In this document: piece by piece, positions 51,728 through 59,894 of the stretch
Layout: each line of letters begins with the position of its first letter
Position numbering within the stretch: position 1 is the stretch's first letter
NCBI RefSeq assembly: GCF_900100255.1
Contig: NZ_FMTS01000001.1
Coordinates: forward strand, 620,001-684,000
Reading direction: 5' to 3'
Length of the DNA: 64,000 nucleotides
From: Asticcacaulis taihuensis
GTDB lineage: Bacteria > Pseudomonadota > Alphaproteobacteria > Caulobacterales > Caulobacteraceae
Position numbers and translations under genes: made by a program
Notes under the pieces: model-generated
Database searches by the model: none
What the model saw: the letters and a program-made list of their open reading frames with translations, nothing else
What the model was told of the DNA's origin: nothing

Positions 51728-52006
51728 ATGGCCGACGACGCCCCCCTCTCCTTCTCCTCCGACGACGTCATTTCCGGCGCCGCCCAAACCCGTCTGCGCA
51801 CCATCATTGAGCGCATCGAACGCCTTGAAGAAGACAAGGCTGGCATCATGGGCGACATCAAGGAAGTCTATGACGAAGCCAAGGGCGAAGGCTTCGATGT
51901 CAAGATCCTGCGCAAGGTCGTTTCCCTGCGCAAGAAGGACAAGGTGAAGCGCGATGAGGAGGAAACCATCCTCGACCTGTACCTGACCGCTATCGGCGAC
52001 CGCTAA
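51728..52006 (+). CDS. gapR: GapR, AT-rich/overtwisted-DNA-binding nucleoid protein (DUF2312)
   Basis: 92 residues. After a short disordered start (about 15 residues), [49 protein letters not shown] is the highly conserved DUF2312/GapR sequence: a coiled-coil helix pair and Lys/Arg residues that ring the DNA. In Caulobacter the tetrameric GapR clamps overtwisted DNA ahead of the replication fork and aids topoisomerases; it is cell-cycle important. Own promoter and strong terminator; a small conserved gene follows. Confidence 0.95.
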
Positions 52007-52026
52007 AACAGTTGACCTGATCTTAG

Positions 52027-52062
52027 GCCGTCCTCATGTTCAGCGCATGAGGACGGCTTTTT
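52027..52062 (+). terminator. Rho-independent terminator of gapR
   Basis: GCCGTCCTCATG (52027-52038) and CATGAGGACGGC (52046-52057): a perfect 12-bp stem with a 7-base loop, followed by five T residues. Confidence 0.93.
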
Positions 52063-52080
52063 CATGCGCGGAGGGGAATG

Positions 52081-52449
52081 ATGGCGTTTAAAACGCCCGC
52101 CAAAGGCATGAGCCGCTCCAAGGGGCTGCAAACGAAAAAGCCCCTTCAGGCCAAACCGCAATCCCCTGCCGACCAGATCAAGGCACAGAAGAAAGCCGTG
52201 CAGGCCGCCACACTCCGCGCGCTCGAAAAAGCCCGCCGTGTGGCCGCCGAACAGGGTGTCGAACTCTCCGAGTGGGAAAACGACTTCATCGACGGCGTCA
52301 CCGAACGCGTCAAAACCTATGGTCGGGCCTTCGCCGACCCCGATAAAGGCGCCATGAACGGTACGCTCTCTCTGCGCCAGGGCGTGAAACTCAGGGAAAT
52401 CCGCAAAAAAGCCCAAAAGGGCAAACAGGCTGCCCCGGAAGAGGATTAA
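52081..52449 (+). CDS. Conserved hypothetical protein next to gapR
   Basis: 122 residues, cytosolic, very basic N-terminus (KTPAKGMSRSKGLQTKKPLQ) then a helical core LRALEKARRVAAEQGVELSEWENDFIDGVTERVKTYGRAFADPDKGAMNGTLSLRQGVKLREIRKKA. No known fold that I can name. The basic tails suggest nucleic-acid contact. GAGGGG at 52071-52076 lies 4 bases before the ATG at 52081; an in-frame ATG at 52078 is the alternative. It is 75 bases behind gapR, beyond the terminator, and 5 bases ahead of the GH99-like gene. Confidence 0.55.
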   Translation: MAFKTPAKGMSRSKGLQTKKPLQAKPQSPADQIKAQKKAVQAATLRALEKARRVAAEQGVELSEWENDFIDGVTERVKTYGRAFADPDKGAMNGTLSLRQGVKLREIRKKAQKGKQAAPEED

Positions 52450-52454
52450 AACGA

Positions 52455-53468
52455 ATGATGCCCAACCGCCGCCATCTGCTTTCCGGTTTGACCGCCGCCG
52501 CCCTGTTGCCATTCCGCGCACTTGCGCAGGCCCGCCCGCGTAAGGAGCTGCTGGTCTTCTATTATGGCTGGTACGGTACCAAAGCGCATTCCGGCCAGGA
52601 TCTTCACTGGCTCAATCCCGATACAGCGCATGAACGCATTGCCGATGCGCCCAACTATCCGGTCGGCGGTCCCTATGACAGCCTCGATCCGGATGTGATT
52701 GCCCACCAGATGGCACAAATCAAGGCCGCCGGCATCACCGGCCTGATCGTCTCGTGGTGGGGCCAGACCGACCGCACCAATGACCAGTTACGACGGGTGC
52801 TCGATGCCGCCGGCGCGCAGGGGCTGAAGGTCACCGCCTATGTCGAACAGGTCGCCAGCGCCGAAGGCGTGGCCGAGGATACGCTTTATCTCTATCGCAC
52901 CTATGGGCGTCACCCCGCCTGGCTGCGCCTGGATAACAAACCGGTCATCATGTATTTCGACCGCCTGATGCAAGATATCGGCCTTGAGGGCTGGCAAAAG
53001 GCCCGCGCCCTGATCGAGAAACAGGTGCCCAATGCCATCAGTTACATCGCCACCGCCAATACACTGAAGGAAATCAAGGCGCGCAAGGGTGCTTTCGACG
53101 GGCTGCATATCTATTCTCAACAGTTCGAAGGCGCGGAGTCTCGCCTGATCCCGGCGCTATGGCGCGCCAAATACTACAGTGACTGGGTCCGGGCGCAGAA
53201 AGGCGCGAAGGTCACCACCGCCACCATCCTGCCCGGCTTCGACGACCGCCTGCAACTGGATCGCAAGGGCAAACGTCCGGTCATCAAGCGTGAGGACGGC
53301 AAGCCCTTCCGCGACCTGTGGAACGCCGCCATCGCCGCGAAACCCGACTGGATACTGATCGTGTCGTTCAACGAATGGCACGAGGCCAGCCAGATCGAGC
53401 CCTCCACTGCCTTCGGTACGCGCGAACTGGAGACCTGTCGGCAGATGAGCGCCAAATTCCTGAGGTGA
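52455..53468 (+). CDS. GH99-like (endo-alpha-mannosidase fold) exported protein
   Basis: 337 residues. A Tat-type leader (NRRHLLSGLTAAALLPFRALA) is followed by a TIM-barrel domain that begins LLVFYYGWYGTKAHSG, with ITGLIVSWWGQTDRTND, KPVIMYFDRLMQ and the end WILIVSFNEWHEASQIEPS. The last motif is the GH99/GH71-like SFNEWHEG-x-xIEPS signature, where the acidic residues are catalytic in endo-alpha-1,2-mannosidase/mannanase. The substrate is not certain, but an alpha-mannan or glucosyl-mannose is likely for the family. It lies 53 bases upstream of a sugar transporter gene. Confidence 0.75.
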   Translation: MMPNRRHLLSGLTAAALLPFRALAQARPRKELLVFYYGWYGTKAHSGQDLHWLNPDTAHERIADAPNYPVGGPYDSLDPDVIAHQMAQIKAAGITGLIVSWWGQTDRTNDQLRRVLDAAGAQGLKVTAYVEQVASAEGVAEDTLYLYRTYGRHPAWLRLDNKPVIMYFDRLMQDIGLEGWQKARALIEKQVPNAISYIATANTLKEIKARKGAFDGLHIYSQQFEGAESRLIPALWRAKYYSDWVRAQKGAKVTTATILPGFDDRLQLDRKGKRPVIKREDGKPFRDLWNAAIAAKPDWILIVSFNEWHEASQIEPSTAFGTRELETCRQMSAKFLR

Positions 53469-53521
53469 CAGGGTCGTCACCTGTGCTAAACAAACCCAAC
53501 AAATAATAAAAGTTGGGAACG

Positions 53522-54883
53522 ATGACACAGGACGCGAAAGCCGCCGCCCCGCCGGGCTGGTTGGAAAAGATCAGTTACGGCTCAGGTGATTTCGGCTTCA
53601 ATCTCTACTGGACCACCATCAGCGCCTTTCTGCTGATCTTCTATACCGACAGTTTCGGCCTCAACGCCGCCGCCGCCGGCACCATGCTGCTGACCACAAA
53701 ACTGGTCGATGCCTTCGCCGATCCGATCATGGGCGCTGTGGCCGATCGCACCCGCACGAAATGGGGGCGTTTTCGCCCGTGGCTTTTGTGGGCCGCGGTG
53801 CCGCTGGCGGCCTCCGGCGTGCTGACCTTCACCACACCCGATCTCGACTCCACCGCCAAGCTGATCTACGCCTATGCCACCTTCGCCCTCATGATGGTCA
53901 TCTATTCGGTGATCAATATTCCTTATGGCGCCTTGTCCGGCGTGCTGACGAGCGAGCCGCAGGCACGTACCCAGCTCAACAGTTTCCGCTTCGTCGGCGG
54001 CTTCCTGGGTGGCACCTTCGTCACCTATATGACACCCAAGCTGGTCAAGGCGCTTGGCGGCGCCAATGAGGTGCTGGGCTGGCAACTGACCATGACCATC
54101 TACGGCGTCATCGCCTGCGTCCTGTTCGTTACCCTCTTCCTGACCGCGCGCGAACGCGTCGAACCGGTTGCTGAGCAAAAGGTCAGTCCATGGAAGGATA
54201 TCGGCGACCTGCTGCAAAACCGGCCCTGGCTGATCATGTTCGTCCTAGCCCTGGTGGTCATGGTCACGATCAGCACGCGCATGGGCGCCAGCGCCTACTA
54301 CATCAAATACTATGTTGGCCGCCCCGATCAAACGGGCTTATTCCTGACCGTATATGGCGGGGCCCTGGCCGCCGGTTCGCTAATCACGCCCCTGCTCACC
54401 CGCTTTATCGACAAGCGCCGGCTGCTGATCATACTGATGGTGCTGGTCGGCGTTCTCTCCTCGGTGTTCGTCTTCATCCCGAAGGACCAGATCGGCCTGA
54501 TGTACGCATTGCAGATCGCCATCGGCCTGTGCCTGGGGCCCAAATCCCCCCTCACCTTTTCGATGTATGCCGATTGCGCCGACTATAATGAATGGAAGAC
54601 CGGCCGCCGCGCCACGGCCATGACCTTCGCCGCCGCCACCTTTTCGCAGAAACTGGGCGGCGCCCTGGCCTCATTTGTCATCGCCAGCGTCCTGGCCAGC
54701 CTCGGTTATGTCGCCAACCAGGCTCAGAGCGGCGCTTCACAGACCGGCATTGTCTGGCTGGTGAGTGTCGTGCCCGGCGCCATGGCCCTGCTGGCCGCCG
54801 TCATCATGTGTTTCTATAACCTGACCGATAAACGCTTGGCCGATATCCAGGCCGCCCTTGCCGAACGGAAAGCCCAAACGTGA
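53522..54883 (+). CDS. GPH-family (MelB-like) sugar symporter 1
   Basis: 453 residues, twelve membrane helices. EKISYGSGDFGFNLYWTTISAFLLIFYTDSFGL is the GPH/MelB start, and KLVDAFADPIMGAVADRTRTKWGRFRPW holds the family motif with the Asp residues that bind the coupling cation. It imports glycosides with Na+ or H+. The ATG at 53522 has GGGA 4 bases upstream. Its TGA overlaps the GTG start of the GH94 gene (GTGA), a sign of translational coupling: transported sugar and phosphorylase belong together. Confidence 0.9.
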   Translation: MTQDAKAAAPPGWLEKISYGSGDFGFNLYWTTISAFLLIFYTDSFGLNAAAAGTMLLTTKLVDAFADPIMGAVADRTRTKWGRFRPWLLWAAVPLAASGVLTFTTPDLDSTAKLIYAYATFALMMVIYSVINIPYGALSGVLTSEPQARTQLNSFRFVGGFLGGTFVTYMTPKLVKALGGANEVLGWQLTMTIYGVIACVLFVTLFLTARERVEPVAEQKVSPWKDIGDLLQNRPWLIMFVLALVVMVTISTRMGASAYYIKYYVGRPDQTGLFLTVYGGALAAGSLITPLLTRFIDKRRLLIILMVLVGVLSSVFVFIPKDQIGLMYALQIAIGLCLGPKSPLTFSMYADCADYNEWKTGRRATAMTFAAATFSQKLGGALASFVIASVLASLGYVANQAQSGASQTGIVWLVSVVPGAMALLAAVIMCFYNLTDKRLADIQAALAERKAQT

Positions 54884-57216
54884 GCCTTGTAGACTTCTCC
54901 GCCGACCGCTGTACGCTTACCAGTCCGACCGCCCTGCCGCTGGCCGCCGGCTTCCTATGGAACCCGCATATGATGATCCACATGACGGCGCGCGGTTACA
55001 CCACGGCGCAGTTCATGCAGCCGGAGCCCAGCAAGTACGCCCGCGCTCAGATCATGGAGGCCAAACACTTCATGCTGCCGGAACAAGGCACCTATGCTCA
55101 CCATCCCGGCCGTTTCTTCTACGTCAAGGACCGCGAAACCGGCAGCCTGTTTTCCGCGCCCTATGAACCCGTGCGCGCACCGGTCGATTGCTTTGCATTC
55201 GAGGTGACACCAGCCGACATTCGCTGGACGATCGATCGTCCCGGCCTGCGCATCGAACTGACCCTGACCCTGCCGGTCGACGACGCCTGCGAACTGTGGG
55301 AAGTGCGCCTGACCAATACCGGCAAACGCGATCGTCAGGTCAGCTTTTATCCCGCCTTCCCGCTTGGCCTGATGAGCTGGATGAACCAGTCGGCCACCCA
55401 TGATCCGGCGCTCGGTGGCATCGTCGCCGATTGCGTGACACCCTATCAGAAAATCGAAGATTACTTTAAAAACAAGACTCTGAAGGACAAGGTTATCCTG
55501 CTGAGTGAACAGGCACCGCTGGCCTTCGAGACCCGGCAGGCCCGTTTTGAAGGCGAAGGCGGGCTGCACAAGCCCGACGCCATCATGGCCGTGCAGATGT
55601 CGGACGGCGTGGCGCTTTATGAAAATCCGATCGCCGCTATGCAGTTCGATCACAATCTGGCGAAAGACGAAAGCGTCACCCACCGCTTTCTGTTCGGACC
55701 GGCTTTCGATGAGGCCGAGATCAGCCGCCTGAAATCGCTTTATCTCTCCGAAGTCGGATTTGCCAAAGCCCGCGAAGCATATGCCGCCTATATCGCGGCC
55801 GGCACGAAAGCGATCGATATGGATACGCCCGATCCGCATCTCGATGCCTTCGTCAATAGCTGGCTGCCGCGCCAGGTCTATTATCACGGCGACACCAACC
55901 GCCTGAGCACCGATCCGCAGACGCGCAACTTCCTGCAGGATGCCATCGGCAGCGTGTACGTCAAGCCGGAAACGGCCCGCAAGACCCTGCTGAAGGCCCT
56001 CTCCCAGCAGCACGCCAATGGCTCCATGCCAGACGGCATCCGCATGTATGAAGGGGCCGAGCTGAAATACATCAATACGGTGCCGCATACGGACCACAGC
56101 GTCTGGCTGGCTCTGCTCATGGAAGCCTATCTCGACGAGACCGATGATTATGCGGTGCTTGATGAGCTGGTCTCCGACACCGAGACCGGCGAGGCTCGCA
56201 CGGTGCGCGACCGTATTTCCGCCGCCAATCAATGGTTGATGCAAGCGGTCGATCAGCGCGGTCTGAACTTTATCGATCAGGGCGACTGGAACGACCCAAT
56301 GAATATGGTTGGCTGGAAGGGCAAGGGCGTATCCGGCTGGCTGTCTTTGGCCACCGCCCATAGCTTACGTTTATGGTCGCAGATCCTGGAGCGCGACGGC
56401 CGGGACGGCAGCGCCTTCGCCTCGGCCGCAAAAGCCTTTAACGAAGCCATGAACACCCATCTGTGGGATGGCGACTGGTACGGACGCGGCATCACCGATG
56501 ACGATGTGAAATTCGGCGTCAAGGCCGATATCGAAGGCCGCATCTATCTTAATCCGCAGAGCTTCGCCCTGATGAGCGGCGCGGCCGATGCCGGCAAGCA
56601 GCAGCGCATGGTCGACGCCATCGCAGACCAGATGGAAACGCCCTATGGCGTCGAAATGATCGCGCCGGCCTATACGCACATGCGCGAGGACGTGGGGCGG
56701 CTGACACAGAAATTCCCCGGCGTGGCGGAAAATGGCTCGGTTTATAATCACGCGGCCATCTTCTATATCTACTCGCTATACCAGGTGAACGAGCCGGAAA
56801 AAGCGTTTGAATTATTGCGCAAAATGCTGACCGGACCGAACGATGAGGATTACCTGCGGCGCGGGCAACTGCCGGTCTTCGTACCCAACTATTACCGCGG
56901 CGCGCATCGCCAGCATCCGGAAGCCTCCGGCCGCTCATCGCACCTGTTCAACACCGGTACAGCATCCTGGCTTTATCGCAGCGTTATCGAAGGGCTGTTC
57001 GGCCTGAAAGGCTGCCGCGAGGGGCTGCGCATTCGCCCGCAACTGCCAGCCACTTGGCCATCGGCACAGGTCACGCGGCACTTCCGAGGCGCGACATTCG
57101 AGGTCGAGATCACGCGCGGCAGGCCCGGTCTTACAGTCGATGGACAGACGATGGCTGGAGACACGATTACCGATATCGTCGCCGGGAAAACCTATCATGT
57201 ACAGGTCGGCGTCTAG
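54880..57216 (+). CDS. GH94-family phosphorylase, cellobionate-phosphorylase-like
   Basis: 778 residues, no signal peptide, cytosolic. An N-terminal beta-sandwich (about 1-270) precedes an (alpha/alpha)6 barrel. QPEPSKYARAQIMEAKHFMLPEQGTYAHHPGRFFYVKD is characteristic of one GH94 branch; LSTDPQTRNFLQDAIGSVYVKPE, MPDGIRMYEGAELKYINTVPHTDHSVW and the catalytic-Asp motif QGDWNDPMNMVGWKGKG are seen. From memory these resemble cellobionic acid phosphorylase (products alpha-glucose-1-phosphate and gluconate) more than cellobiose or chitobiose phosphorylases. GTG start at 54880, coupled to the upstream symporter. Tail-to-tail with an exported lactonase. Confidence 0.72.
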   Translation: MSLVDFSADRCTLTSPTALPLAAGFLWNPHMMIHMTARGYTTAQFMQPEPSKYARAQIMEAKHFMLPEQGTYAHHPGRFFYVKDRETGSLFSAPYEPVRAPVDCFAFEVTPADIRWTIDRPGLRIELTLTLPVDDACELWEVRLTNTGKRDRQVSFYPAFPLGLMSWMNQSATHDPALGGIVADCVTPYQKIEDYFKNKTLKDKVILLSEQAPLAFETRQARFEGEGGLHKPDAIMAVQMSDGVALYENPIAAMQFDHNLAKDESVTHRFLFGPAFDEAEISRLKSLYLSEVGFAKAREAYAAYIAAGTKAIDMDTPDPHLDAFVNSWLPRQVYYHGDTNRLSTDPQTRNFLQDAIGSVYVKPETARKTLLKALSQQHANGSMPDGIRMYEGAELKYINTVPHTDHSVWLALLMEAYLDETDDYAVLDELVSDTETGEARTVRDRISAANQWLMQAVDQRGLNFIDQGDWNDPMNMVGWKGKGVSGWLSLATAHSLRLWSQILERDGRDGSAFASAAKAFNEAMNTHLWDGDWYGRGITDDDVKFGVKADIEGRIYLNPQSFALMSGAADAGKQQRMVDAIADQMETPYGVEMIAPAYTHMREDVGRLTQKFPGVAENGSVYNHAAIFYIYSLYQVNEPEKAFELLRKMLTGPNDEDYLRRGQLPVFVPNYYRGAHRQHPEASGRSSHLFNTGTASWLYRSVIEGLFGLKGCREGLRIRPQLPATWPSAQVTRHFRGATFEVEITRGRPGLTVDGQTMAGDTITDIVAGKTYHVQVGV

Positions 57217-58325
57217 GCCACCGCGCCGATAAATACCGGGATTGACACGTCGATTTTCTGGTCCTTTGGCGTCAGAGTGCCATCGTCATTGACCGCGAAG
57301 ACCACGAGATCATTGCTCTTCTGGTGCGCCACCACCAGGCGCTTTTGCGCTTCGTAAAGCGCGAAGAACCGCGGCCAGTTGCCGAGCGTCGGCGATATCT
57401 GGCGCAGGCTCAGGTGCGCGTCTGCGGCCACATCGAAAACGGCAATACTGTTATGGCCGCGATTGGAGACATAAAGCCGGTCAGCCGCTGCATTAAGCGT
57501 GATATGCGCGCAGAAGCTCTCGCCTGTGAAACCCGCCGGCAAAGGGCTGATCGTCTGGATGGCCTCGAACCGACCATTTGCAGTCTTTTTCAGGACAATG
57601 ACGACGCTGCTCAGCTCCGTCACCAGAAACGCATGAACGCCATCCGGATGGAAGGTCAGATGCCGTGGTCCGGCGCCGCCTGGCGCATGGTATGCCTCGA
57701 ATGCCTCCCCGACCTGGCCGCTGGCCGCATCGAAGCTGTAACCCAGCACCCGGTCGGTGCCGAGATCGACGCTGTAGATATGATCGCCGTGAAACTGCAC
57801 CCAGTGCGCGTGCGGTCCCTCCTGACGGTCCTTGTTCGGCCCCATCCCTTTGTTCTGGCGGTTGACGGGCGGCTGTTCCAAACCGCCCTCCGCACCGATT
57901 TTAAAGACAACAATATTTCCCGATGAATAGTTGGCGACCGCCAGATACCCGCCCGTGGGATCGACCGATGCATAGCAGGGCGCGGCCCCCTGGCTGGAGA
58001 CCTCATAGCTTTGTGTCCATGATTGATCATAGACACCAATGCGGCCGTCATCCTTTTCATTCAGCAGATAATAATGTTTCGAGACGGGGCTGTAGGCACC
58101 AAACGATACGTTTTCGATGGCCGGCACGGCGCTTCCCAGCGACCAGCTATCTGTCGCTGCGGTATAGGTCAGCGGATAGATGCCCTTCGCGCTATCCGAA
58201 CTGTAGGTGCCGACAAACAGGTTCAAATCCACCGCCTCTGCAAGAGCGAAGGCCGGCACGAACAGGGTGGCCGCCGTTCCGGCCAGGAACATCCGCCGGT
58301 CGGGCGTAAAGGATATGCGGCTCAT
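57213..58325 (-). CDS. Exported lactonase, 6-phosphogluconolactonase-type beta-propeller
   Basis: 370 residues. A twin-arginine-type leader (DRRMFLAGTAATLFVPAFALA) shows that it leaves the cytoplasm, so its substrate is unlikely to be cytosolic 6-phosphogluconolactone. The seven-bladed propeller of the lactonase family (PF10282 type) is plain: LFVGTYSSDSAKGIYPL, YLAVANYSSGNIVVFKI, GPHAHWVQFHGDHIYSVDLGTDRV, GAGPRHLTFHPDG, LYVSNRGHNSIAVFDV. It probably opens an aldonolactone in the periplasm. It converges with the GH94 gene, both stops sharing CTAG. Confidence 0.82.
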   Translation of the reverse strand: MSRISFTPDRRMFLAGTAATLFVPAFALAEAVDLNLFVGTYSSDSAKGIYPLTYTAATDSWSLGSAVPAIENVSFGAYSPVSKHYYLLNEKDDGRIGVYDQSWTQSYEVSSQGAAPCYASVDPTGGYLAVANYSSGNIVVFKIGAEGGLEQPPVNRQNKGMGPNKDRQEGPHAHWVQFHGDHIYSVDLGTDRVLGYSFDAASGQVGEAFEAYHAPGGAGPRHLTFHPDGVHAFLVTELSSVVIVLKKTANGRFEAIQTISPLPAGFTGESFCAHITLNAAADRLYVSNRGHNSIAVFDVAADAHLSLRQISPTLGNWPRFFALYEAQKRLVVAHQKSNDLVVFAVNDDGTLTPKDQKIDVSIPVFIGAVA

Positions 58326-58502
58326 GTCGTCCTCCTGAATTATGTATATGCACCCTAGTCGAGACTCTCCGCTTTACGCCAGCCCTTTTCGCGCCCGCAC
58401 AACTCGCCTGATGCGCGAAAACACCTTACCGTCTTTCCACTTCATTAAGGGATAGGCGTAACAATGACCGGCATTAAGTATGCCCCTGTGCCCTGAGTAT
58501 CC

Positions 58503-59894
58503 ATGCCACCCATTTCCAGCGACAAGGCGGCCCTGCACGCCTACGAACCGATACGTATCAGAGAGATCGCCAGCTACAGCCTGGGCGACACGGGTTTCAA
58601 CCTGTATTGGGCGCCGCTGTCCGCCTTCCTGATGGTCTATCTGAGCGATGTGGTGGGCCTTAGCCTTGTCAGCATCTCAACCCTGCTGATCACCATGCGC
58701 CTGATCAGTGCATTCGCCGATCCGGTATTTGGCGCCATCGCCGACCGCACCCGAACGGCTCACGGCCGCTATCGCCCCTGGTTCCTGTGGCTCTGCCTGC
58801 CGCTGGCGGCTTCCGCCATCATGTTCTTTTCCATCACCAATGCCCCCCCGGATGCGCGCCTGATTGGCGCCTATGTCGGCCTGATCCTGATGAACCTGAT
58901 CTATACGGCAGCCAATACCGCCTATAACGCTCTCTCCGGTGTCATTACCCCCGATTCCGTCCAGCGCGAACTGATCATGAGTTCGCGCTTCGGCGCCGCC
59001 TTCCTCAGCGCCGTCTTCATTACCTGGATCACGCCAAGGTTCATCGACTGGGCCGGCCGTGGCAATGCAGCACTGGGCTGGCAATTCGTCATGACTATTT
59101 ACGGCGTCATCGCTGTCGTCATCCTGGTCAACCTGTTCCTGCAAACGCACGAACGCTTTGCCTCCAACGCGCCTCCCAATGCCAACCCGCTGCTTGATGT
59201 CGCCGAACTGTTCAGGAACCGTCCCTGGGTGATCCTGTTCGGCCTTGCCGGCGTGGTGATGGCCGCTTCCATGCTGCGCACATCGATATCGCCCTATTTC
59301 ATGAAAGCCTATGCCGGCCGGCCCGACCTGGTCGTCAGTTTCCTGATGACCTTTACTCTGGGCCTCGCGGCGGGTTCGGTCAGCGTAGCCTTCGTGACTC
59401 GCGTAATGTCACGCCCCGCATCGATTGCCCTTATGCTGGGTATTGTTGCCCTGTCGGGGCTTGGCCTCTATCTCAGCGGACCGCACCAGATTCTCCTGAT
59501 GTTTGCCCTACAGGCAGTCAGTGGCGCCGCCTTCGGTTTCATCGGCACCCTGACCTTCGCCATGTATGCCGATACGGCCGATTTCAATGCCTGGAAAACC
59601 GGTCATCGCGCCACAGCCATGACCTATTCGATGATCATGTTCTCGAAAAAAGTCGGCGCCGCAGGTGCAGCCGCCTTTATCGGCTGGGCACTGGCGGGCT
59701 ATGCCGCCAACCTCCCGGTGTCGCCGCTGATCCTGGACAATATCCGCCTGCTCATGGGCTTGGCTCCCGCCATACTGGCCCTGGTCGGTATCGGTATCAT
59801 TGCCCTGTATGACCTGACGCCGGAAAAGGTCGTCAAGCTTCAGGCGCAATTGCTGGGCGGCCTTGGCCGGTCAGAATCTAGCCAGCTTCCTTGA
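58503..59894 (+). CDS. GPH-family (MelB-like) sugar symporter 2
   Basis: 463 residues, twelve membrane helices, paralogous to the symporter at 53522. IREIASYSLGDTGFNLYWAPLSAFLMVYLSDVVGL and RLISAFADPVFGAIADRTRTAHGRYRPW carry the same GPH motifs (Asp positions kept). Two GPH transporters in one locus suggest two related glycosides or an anomer pair. It ends 17 bases inside the 3' end of tacA (convergent overlap). ATG at 58503 is close to a weak ribosome site; an intergenic 177 bases separates it from the lactonase, divergent. Confidence 0.88.
   Translation: MPPISSDKAALHAYEPIRIREIASYSLGDTGFNLYWAPLSAFLMVYLSDVVGLSLVSISTLLITMRLISAFADPVFGAIADRTRTAHGRYRPWFLWLCLPLAASAIMFFSITNAPPDARLIGAYVGLILMNLIYTAANTAYNALSGVITPDSVQRELIMSSRFGAAFLSAVFITWITPRFIDWAGRGNAALGWQFVMTIYGVIAVVILVNLFLQTHERFASNAPPNANPLLDVAELFRNRPWVILFGLAGVVMAASMLRTSISPYFMKAYAGRPDLVVSFLMTFTLGLAAGSVSVAFVTRVMSRPASIALMLGIVALSGLGLYLSGPHQILLMFALQAVSGAAFGFIGTLTFAMYADTADFNAWKTGHRATAMTYSMIMFSKKVGAAGAAAFIGWALAGYAANLPVSPLILDNIRLLMGLAPAILALVGIGIIALYDLTPEKVVKLQAQLLGGLGRSESSQLP

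Follow-up and report, generated by a model that had tools for sequence, protein, structure and literature searches.

Putative cellobionic acid phosphorylase pair and a GH99–lactonase–symporter group at one chromosomal site in Asticcacaulis taihuensis

The five genes of the locus

The window, by which we mean the whole 64,000-nucleotide stretch of Asticcacaulis taihuensis DNA that was analysed, carries five neighbouring genes that the original prediction had described as a locus for the use of oxidised disaccharides. The five open reading frames lie where they had been placed, and their families are borne out by profile scores above the cut-offs (Table 1).

Table 1. Genes of the locus and two candidate sugar oxidoreductases (profile scores in bits, with cut-offs)
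Feature	Position	Strand	Evidence and remarks
GH99-like protein	52455-53468	+	PF16317 123.3 bits (cut-off 33); twin-arginine leader; EWHE catalytic motif
GPH symporter MFSa	53513-54883	+	TIGR00792 401.5 bits (cut-off 231.35); candidate cellobionate importer
GH94 protein, cellobionic acid phosphorylase (CBAP) type, 778 aa	54880-57216	+	PF17167 196.5 bits (cut-off 27); no leader
Lactonase, PpgL-like, 7-bladed propeller	57213-58325	-	PF10282 299.5 bits (cut-off 21.7)
Second GPH symporter MFSb	58503-59894	+	TIGR00792 267.9 bits (cut-off 231.35)
Membrane quinoprotein dehydrogenase, glucose/quinate/shikimate family (L191)	G000:C13:79634-81964		TIGR03074 887 bits (cut-off 832.65)
Twin-arginine GFOR/aldose-aldose oxidoreductase-like protein (L177, P0001)	G000:C13:39310-40467		

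The GTGA stop–start said to be shared by MFSa and the GH94 gene is present at 54880–54883, an overlap through which MFSa is, as read from the DNA, translationally coupled to GH94. The listed start of MFSa is a TTG and may not be the true one, as an in-frame ATG lies three codons downstream. The GH94 and lactonase genes overlap tail to tail (57213–57216), the lactonase and MFSb genes diverge from an interval of about 177 bases, and the two symporters are 43.9% identical. Upstream, at 51728–52449, lie gapR (PF10073) and a small gene with no Pfam match, which ends at most 10 bases before GH99 and is kept at this site in many Asticcacaulis. The search for sigma-70-like promoters gave 2 sites against 3.4 expected, that for terminator-like sites 14 against 7.7 expected, and the repeat search in the two intergenic stretches returned only inverted repeats of 9 and 14 bases.

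The lactonase has the profile and the seven-bladed propeller of the PF10282/PpgL type. It had been credited with a Tat-type leader placing it outside the cytoplasm, and the Tat-like motif is indeed there: it reads DRRMFLAG, and both arginines are invariant across 11 aligned orthologues. From this motif and its conservation we infer that the protein is exported. The GH99-like protein also carries a twin-arginine leader, which had been overlooked; its arginines are invariant in the 10 proteins aligned out of 11, the eleventh, L144, which is near-identical to L145 and left out of alignment A1, being read by eye. The family profile, the fold and the EWHE catalytic motif all place this protein in GH99; the assignment of EWHE rests on sequence because the catalytic loop of the model (307–319) is of low confidence. 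Eukaryotic GH99 clades have, according to the consulted part of PMC11025385, a motif H[I/L]EPY; here the sequence at 129–133 is YVEQV instead, in which the glutamate is retained.

Distribution of the five genes

The Asticcacaulis flanks all map to a single site, between a gapR gene and a sigma-54 regulator, the content of which varies. CBAP was found in 20 of the 25 genomes and GH99 in 11; a lactonase orthologue (at least 48% identity), at the site or split from it, was found in 11/25, a count in which lactonases of 39–46% identity elsewhere in 8 genomes are scored absent and which would be 19/25 if any of them counted. MFSb lies in the fetched regions of 9/25 genomes, the regions within which both symporters were scored, and all 9 have the local lactonase. 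The lactonase keeps company with GH99 (10 genomes with both, one with each alone, 13 with neither; agreement 23/25) and with MFSb (9 with both, 2 with lactonase only, 14 with neither; agreement 23/25). Its agreement with CBAP is 10/25 (8 with both, 12 with CBAP only, 3 with lactonase only, 2 with neither). Fisher values for these co-occurrences are too optimistic, because related genomes are not independent.

The five genes do not keep together, either across these 25 genomes or at the 72 CBAP loci found outside Asticcacaulis. All five are present in 7/25 genomes, in 5 as one block and in 2 (G133, G145) split over two places. In G114 and G149 the GH99, lactonase and MFSb genes are adjacent at the same site and the MFSa–GH94 pair is missing; in G119 GH99 and the lactonase are the only ones present, G141 combines CBAP with the lactonase but lacks GH99, and in five genomes the site holds the symporter–CBAP pair alone. 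When 17 genomes are arranged in a tree built on two proteins, G114 falls in a clade of five genomes (support 1.0) of which the other four have the pair, and G149 is sister to G141 (support 0.985); these placements point to repeated loss of the MFSa–GH94 pair as a unit. Six Asticcacaulis genomes have a CBAP gene elsewhere (L156–L161), near GH127 and pectate lyase genes and with no GPH symporter.

Beyond Asticcacaulis, a related GPH symporter accompanies the GH94 gene at 54/72 CBAP loci; one of these symporters is a fragment, and all 53 of the full-length ones are nearer MFSa than MFSb. At least 53/72 loci have a gluconokinase in the fetched flanks, where the query was confirmed as TIGR01313 and the remaining gluconokinases were called by similarity; this linkage fits gluconate as a product of CBAP. 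A lactonase was found in the flanks of at least one (L056, 65 bits, more than 7 kb away), and GH99 in those of 0/72. The counts of 53 and 1 are lower bounds because several loci are short (L051, L079 and others). With 1/72, the lactonase was rejected as a general component of CBAP loci. The Pleomorphomonas and rhodobacterial loci (L057–L067) have no GPH symporter and instead often hold LacI regulators along with genes similar to ABC-type sugar transporters.

GH99 relatives were found in 0/384 other sampled Alphaproteobacteria, a sample holding no other Asticcacaulis, and the overlapping sample of 397 other Pseudomonadota gave just four matches, all of them weak and partial, the strongest with 31.5 bits. 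Four plasmid records hold relatives of 25–31% identity. As far as searched, the GH99–lactonase–symporter module is restricted to Asticcacaulis among the sampled Pseudomonadota.

We consider it likely that the locus consists of two units, symporter–GH94 and GH99–lactonase–MFSb, that occupy one chromosomal site. In the first, cellobionic acid would be taken up by MFSa and split with phosphate by the cytoplasmic GH94 enzyme to glucose 1-phosphate and gluconate, and the gluconate would be phosphorylated by a gluconokinase encoded elsewhere; the genome has its own gluconokinase on C14, unlinked to the locus (172 bits, cut-off 113.75). In the second, which would operate without the first, an exported endo-alpha-mannanase-like GH99 and a periplasmic lactonase of gluconolactonase type would be accompanied by MFSb, a putative importer of another sugar. 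The lactonase probably opens sugar lactones arising from periplasmic oxidation, of which cellobionolactone may be one among several. Counting against the two-unit reading are the seven genomes with all five genes, the relatedness of the genomes compared, the scoring of the more distant lactonases as absent, and the gene order in the window, which suggests one operon GH99–MFSa–GH94.

The competing reading is that of a single pathway: cellobionolactone would be opened by the lactonase after its export, cellobionate would be taken up through the symporters and split by GH94, and GH99 would free a related oligosaccharide. It draws on the tail-to-tail adjacency, the predicted export of the lactonase, the CBAP identity of GH94, the presence of CBAP in 8 of the 11 genomes with a local lactonase, and a fungal route which, in the consulted part of PMC3948607, includes an extracellular aldonolactonase. 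We nevertheless regard a unified five-gene pathway as unlikely: the local lactonase is missing from 12/20 CBAP genomes and CBAP from 3/11 lactonase genomes, the lactonase flanks a single one of the 72 other CBAP loci at that distance of more than 7 kb, and GH99 resembles alpha-mannan enzymes. The earlier idea of a single oxidised-disaccharide locus made up of all five genes is not borne out, in view of the same resemblance and of the finding that lactonase, GH99 and MFSb occur without CBAP, and CBAP mostly without them. That the lactonase opens cellobionolactone, as was proposed, is possible, yet adjacency is the one genetic observation in its favour, and the enzyme more likely serves sugar lactones generally.

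Identity of the GH94 protein and source of cellobionate

Compared with all solved structures, the GH94 protein scores 1057.9 bits against 4zle, and the next, a chitobiose phosphorylase, 192.4 bits. In the structure paper on SdCBAP, by Nam in 2015, the carboxylate is reportedly bound by Arg609, Lys613 and Gln190. The GH94 residues Q190, R607 and K611 align with Q190, R609 and K613 of SdCBAP; this trio is present in 90/90 CBAP-like rows, including the window's copy (L082), and in 0/10 NdvB-like rows, which have N, Y and Y in 10/10. The count leaves out L001, L051 and L079 and the duplicates L002–L006, L063, L071 and L076; the 10 NdvB-like rows are those with loci kept, from 16 such genomes, and the NdvB label is our own, given from long frames and structure-search scores. 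In the tree, 20 Asticcacaulis loci, the window's own gene among them, form one clade with the window copy (support 1.0), and SdCBAP is nested inside a wider CBAP-like clade with 92 members (support 0.958). The GH94 protein of A. benevestitus is 85% identical to that of the window. The structure scores, the residues and the tree agree with the earlier view that the protein resembles CBAP, and its phylogenetic placement is with the characterised SdCBAP. By every sequence test it is predicted to be a CBAP, and there is a strong case for both this assignment and its symporter partner.

CBAP is usually linked to LPMO-driven oxidative cellulose breakdown. The profile of the bacterial-type LPMO (LPMO_10) matched 0/25 Asticcacaulis genomes and, among the control genomes, Lactococcus lactis only. 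This result would suit a role of GH94 on glucosyl-glucuronic acid from an exopolysaccharide, the locus recycling that polymer and not cellulose products, as would the acceptor range of SdCBAP, whose structure paper reportedly names glucuronic acid in its abstract as a further acceptor. We hold this to be improbable, as the linked gluconokinase in 53/72 relatives points to gluconate as the product. A third reading, for which common membership of GH94 speaks, makes the protein an ordinary phosphorylase of cellobiose or beta-1,2-glucan; it can scarcely be entertained in view of the bit scores, the invariant carboxylate residues and the clade with SdCBAP. On the scores and residues, enzymes of the cellobiose, chitobiose, cellodextrin and NdvB types were likewise rejected.

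With CBAP in 20/25 genomes and LPMO_10 in 0/25, these bacteria would either draw on sugars oxidised by other organisms or produce such sugars themselves through periplasmic oxidation. Periplasmic sugar oxidases of the same genome are one candidate source of cellobionate. The membrane quinoprotein dehydrogenase (L191) has strong matches in 9 genomes, all with the local lactonase, and in 0/14 genomes without it, the 8 genomes whose matches have E values above 1e-90 being scored as lacking the quinoprotein; only two genomes exceed the curated cut-off, and the quinoprotein–lactonase pattern follows one clade. CBAP does not track the quinoprotein among the 25 genomes (8 with both, 12 with CBAP only, 1 with quinoprotein only, 4 with neither). 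Near L191, genes resembling an SMP-30 lactonase, a sugar-acid kinase and an aldolase were seen by eye, the SMP-30 guess having no NCBIfam match. The GFOR-like protein, which scores 327 bits with GFOR of Zymomonas and 284 bits with the aldose-aldose oxidoreductase of Caulobacter, has strong matches in 19/25 Asticcacaulis genomes and is a possible periplasmic source of aldonolactones. It was rejected as a partner of the lactonase, the two showing no association (8 with both, 3 with lactonase only, 11 with the GFOR-like protein only, 3 with neither). The Caulobacter enzyme converts monosaccharides to aldonolactones, and a maltotriose complex is listed (PMC9795676, in part); the portions consulted of PMC4628093 and PMC9795676 make no mention of activity on cellobiose. 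A full LPMO-free route, in which quinoprotein- or GFOR-like oxidation of cellobiose in the periplasm would yield cellobionolactone, the Tat-exported lactonase would open it, and the symporter–CBAP pair would deliver glucose 1-phosphate and gluconate, seems to us a doubtful proposition; if true, Asticcacaulis would produce its own cellobionate without LPMOs.

Comparison with known systems

The closest fold to the lactonase is that of PpgL (6igb), the periplasmic gluconolactonase of Pseudomonas aeruginosa. The window protein differs from it by its twin-arginine leader, and by sequence an uncharacterised Lactobacillus protein (3hfq) outscores 6igb. The GH99 protein is 24–27% identical to the endo-alpha-mannosidases and mannanases BtGH99, BxGH99 and MANEA, from which it differs by the YVEQV in place of H[I/L]EPY. 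SdCBAP, which is Sde_0906 and the protein of 4ZLE according to a table in PMC8950772, matches the window GH94 over its full length with identical acceptor-site residues. XCC4077 is another CBAP of family GH94, and Xanthomonas orthologues share the symporter–GH94 order. Unlike these two systems, the window has no gluconokinase beside GH94 and the genome no LPMO_10 match.

The combination of genes had been thought new. The open-licence papers searched describe neither such a gene arrangement in bacteria, nor Asticcacaulis in connection with cellobionic acid, nor GH99 with a lactonase; the claim is nevertheless too strong in view of Neurospora, which, in the consulted parts of the sources, has the MFS cellobionate transporter CBT-1 and a CBAP named CAP (PMC4537572), and lac-2, a homologue of an extracellular aldonolactonase that has been characterised (PMC3948607). 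This pathway shares with the window a transporter, a CBAP and an exported lactonase (predicted in the window), although it is fungal, those parts of the papers do not mention gene clustering, and CBT-1, there described just as an MFS transporter, is set beside the GPH symporters by description only. As an exported aldonolactonase, a transporter and a CBAP occur together in Neurospora, the core combination was already known outside bacteria.
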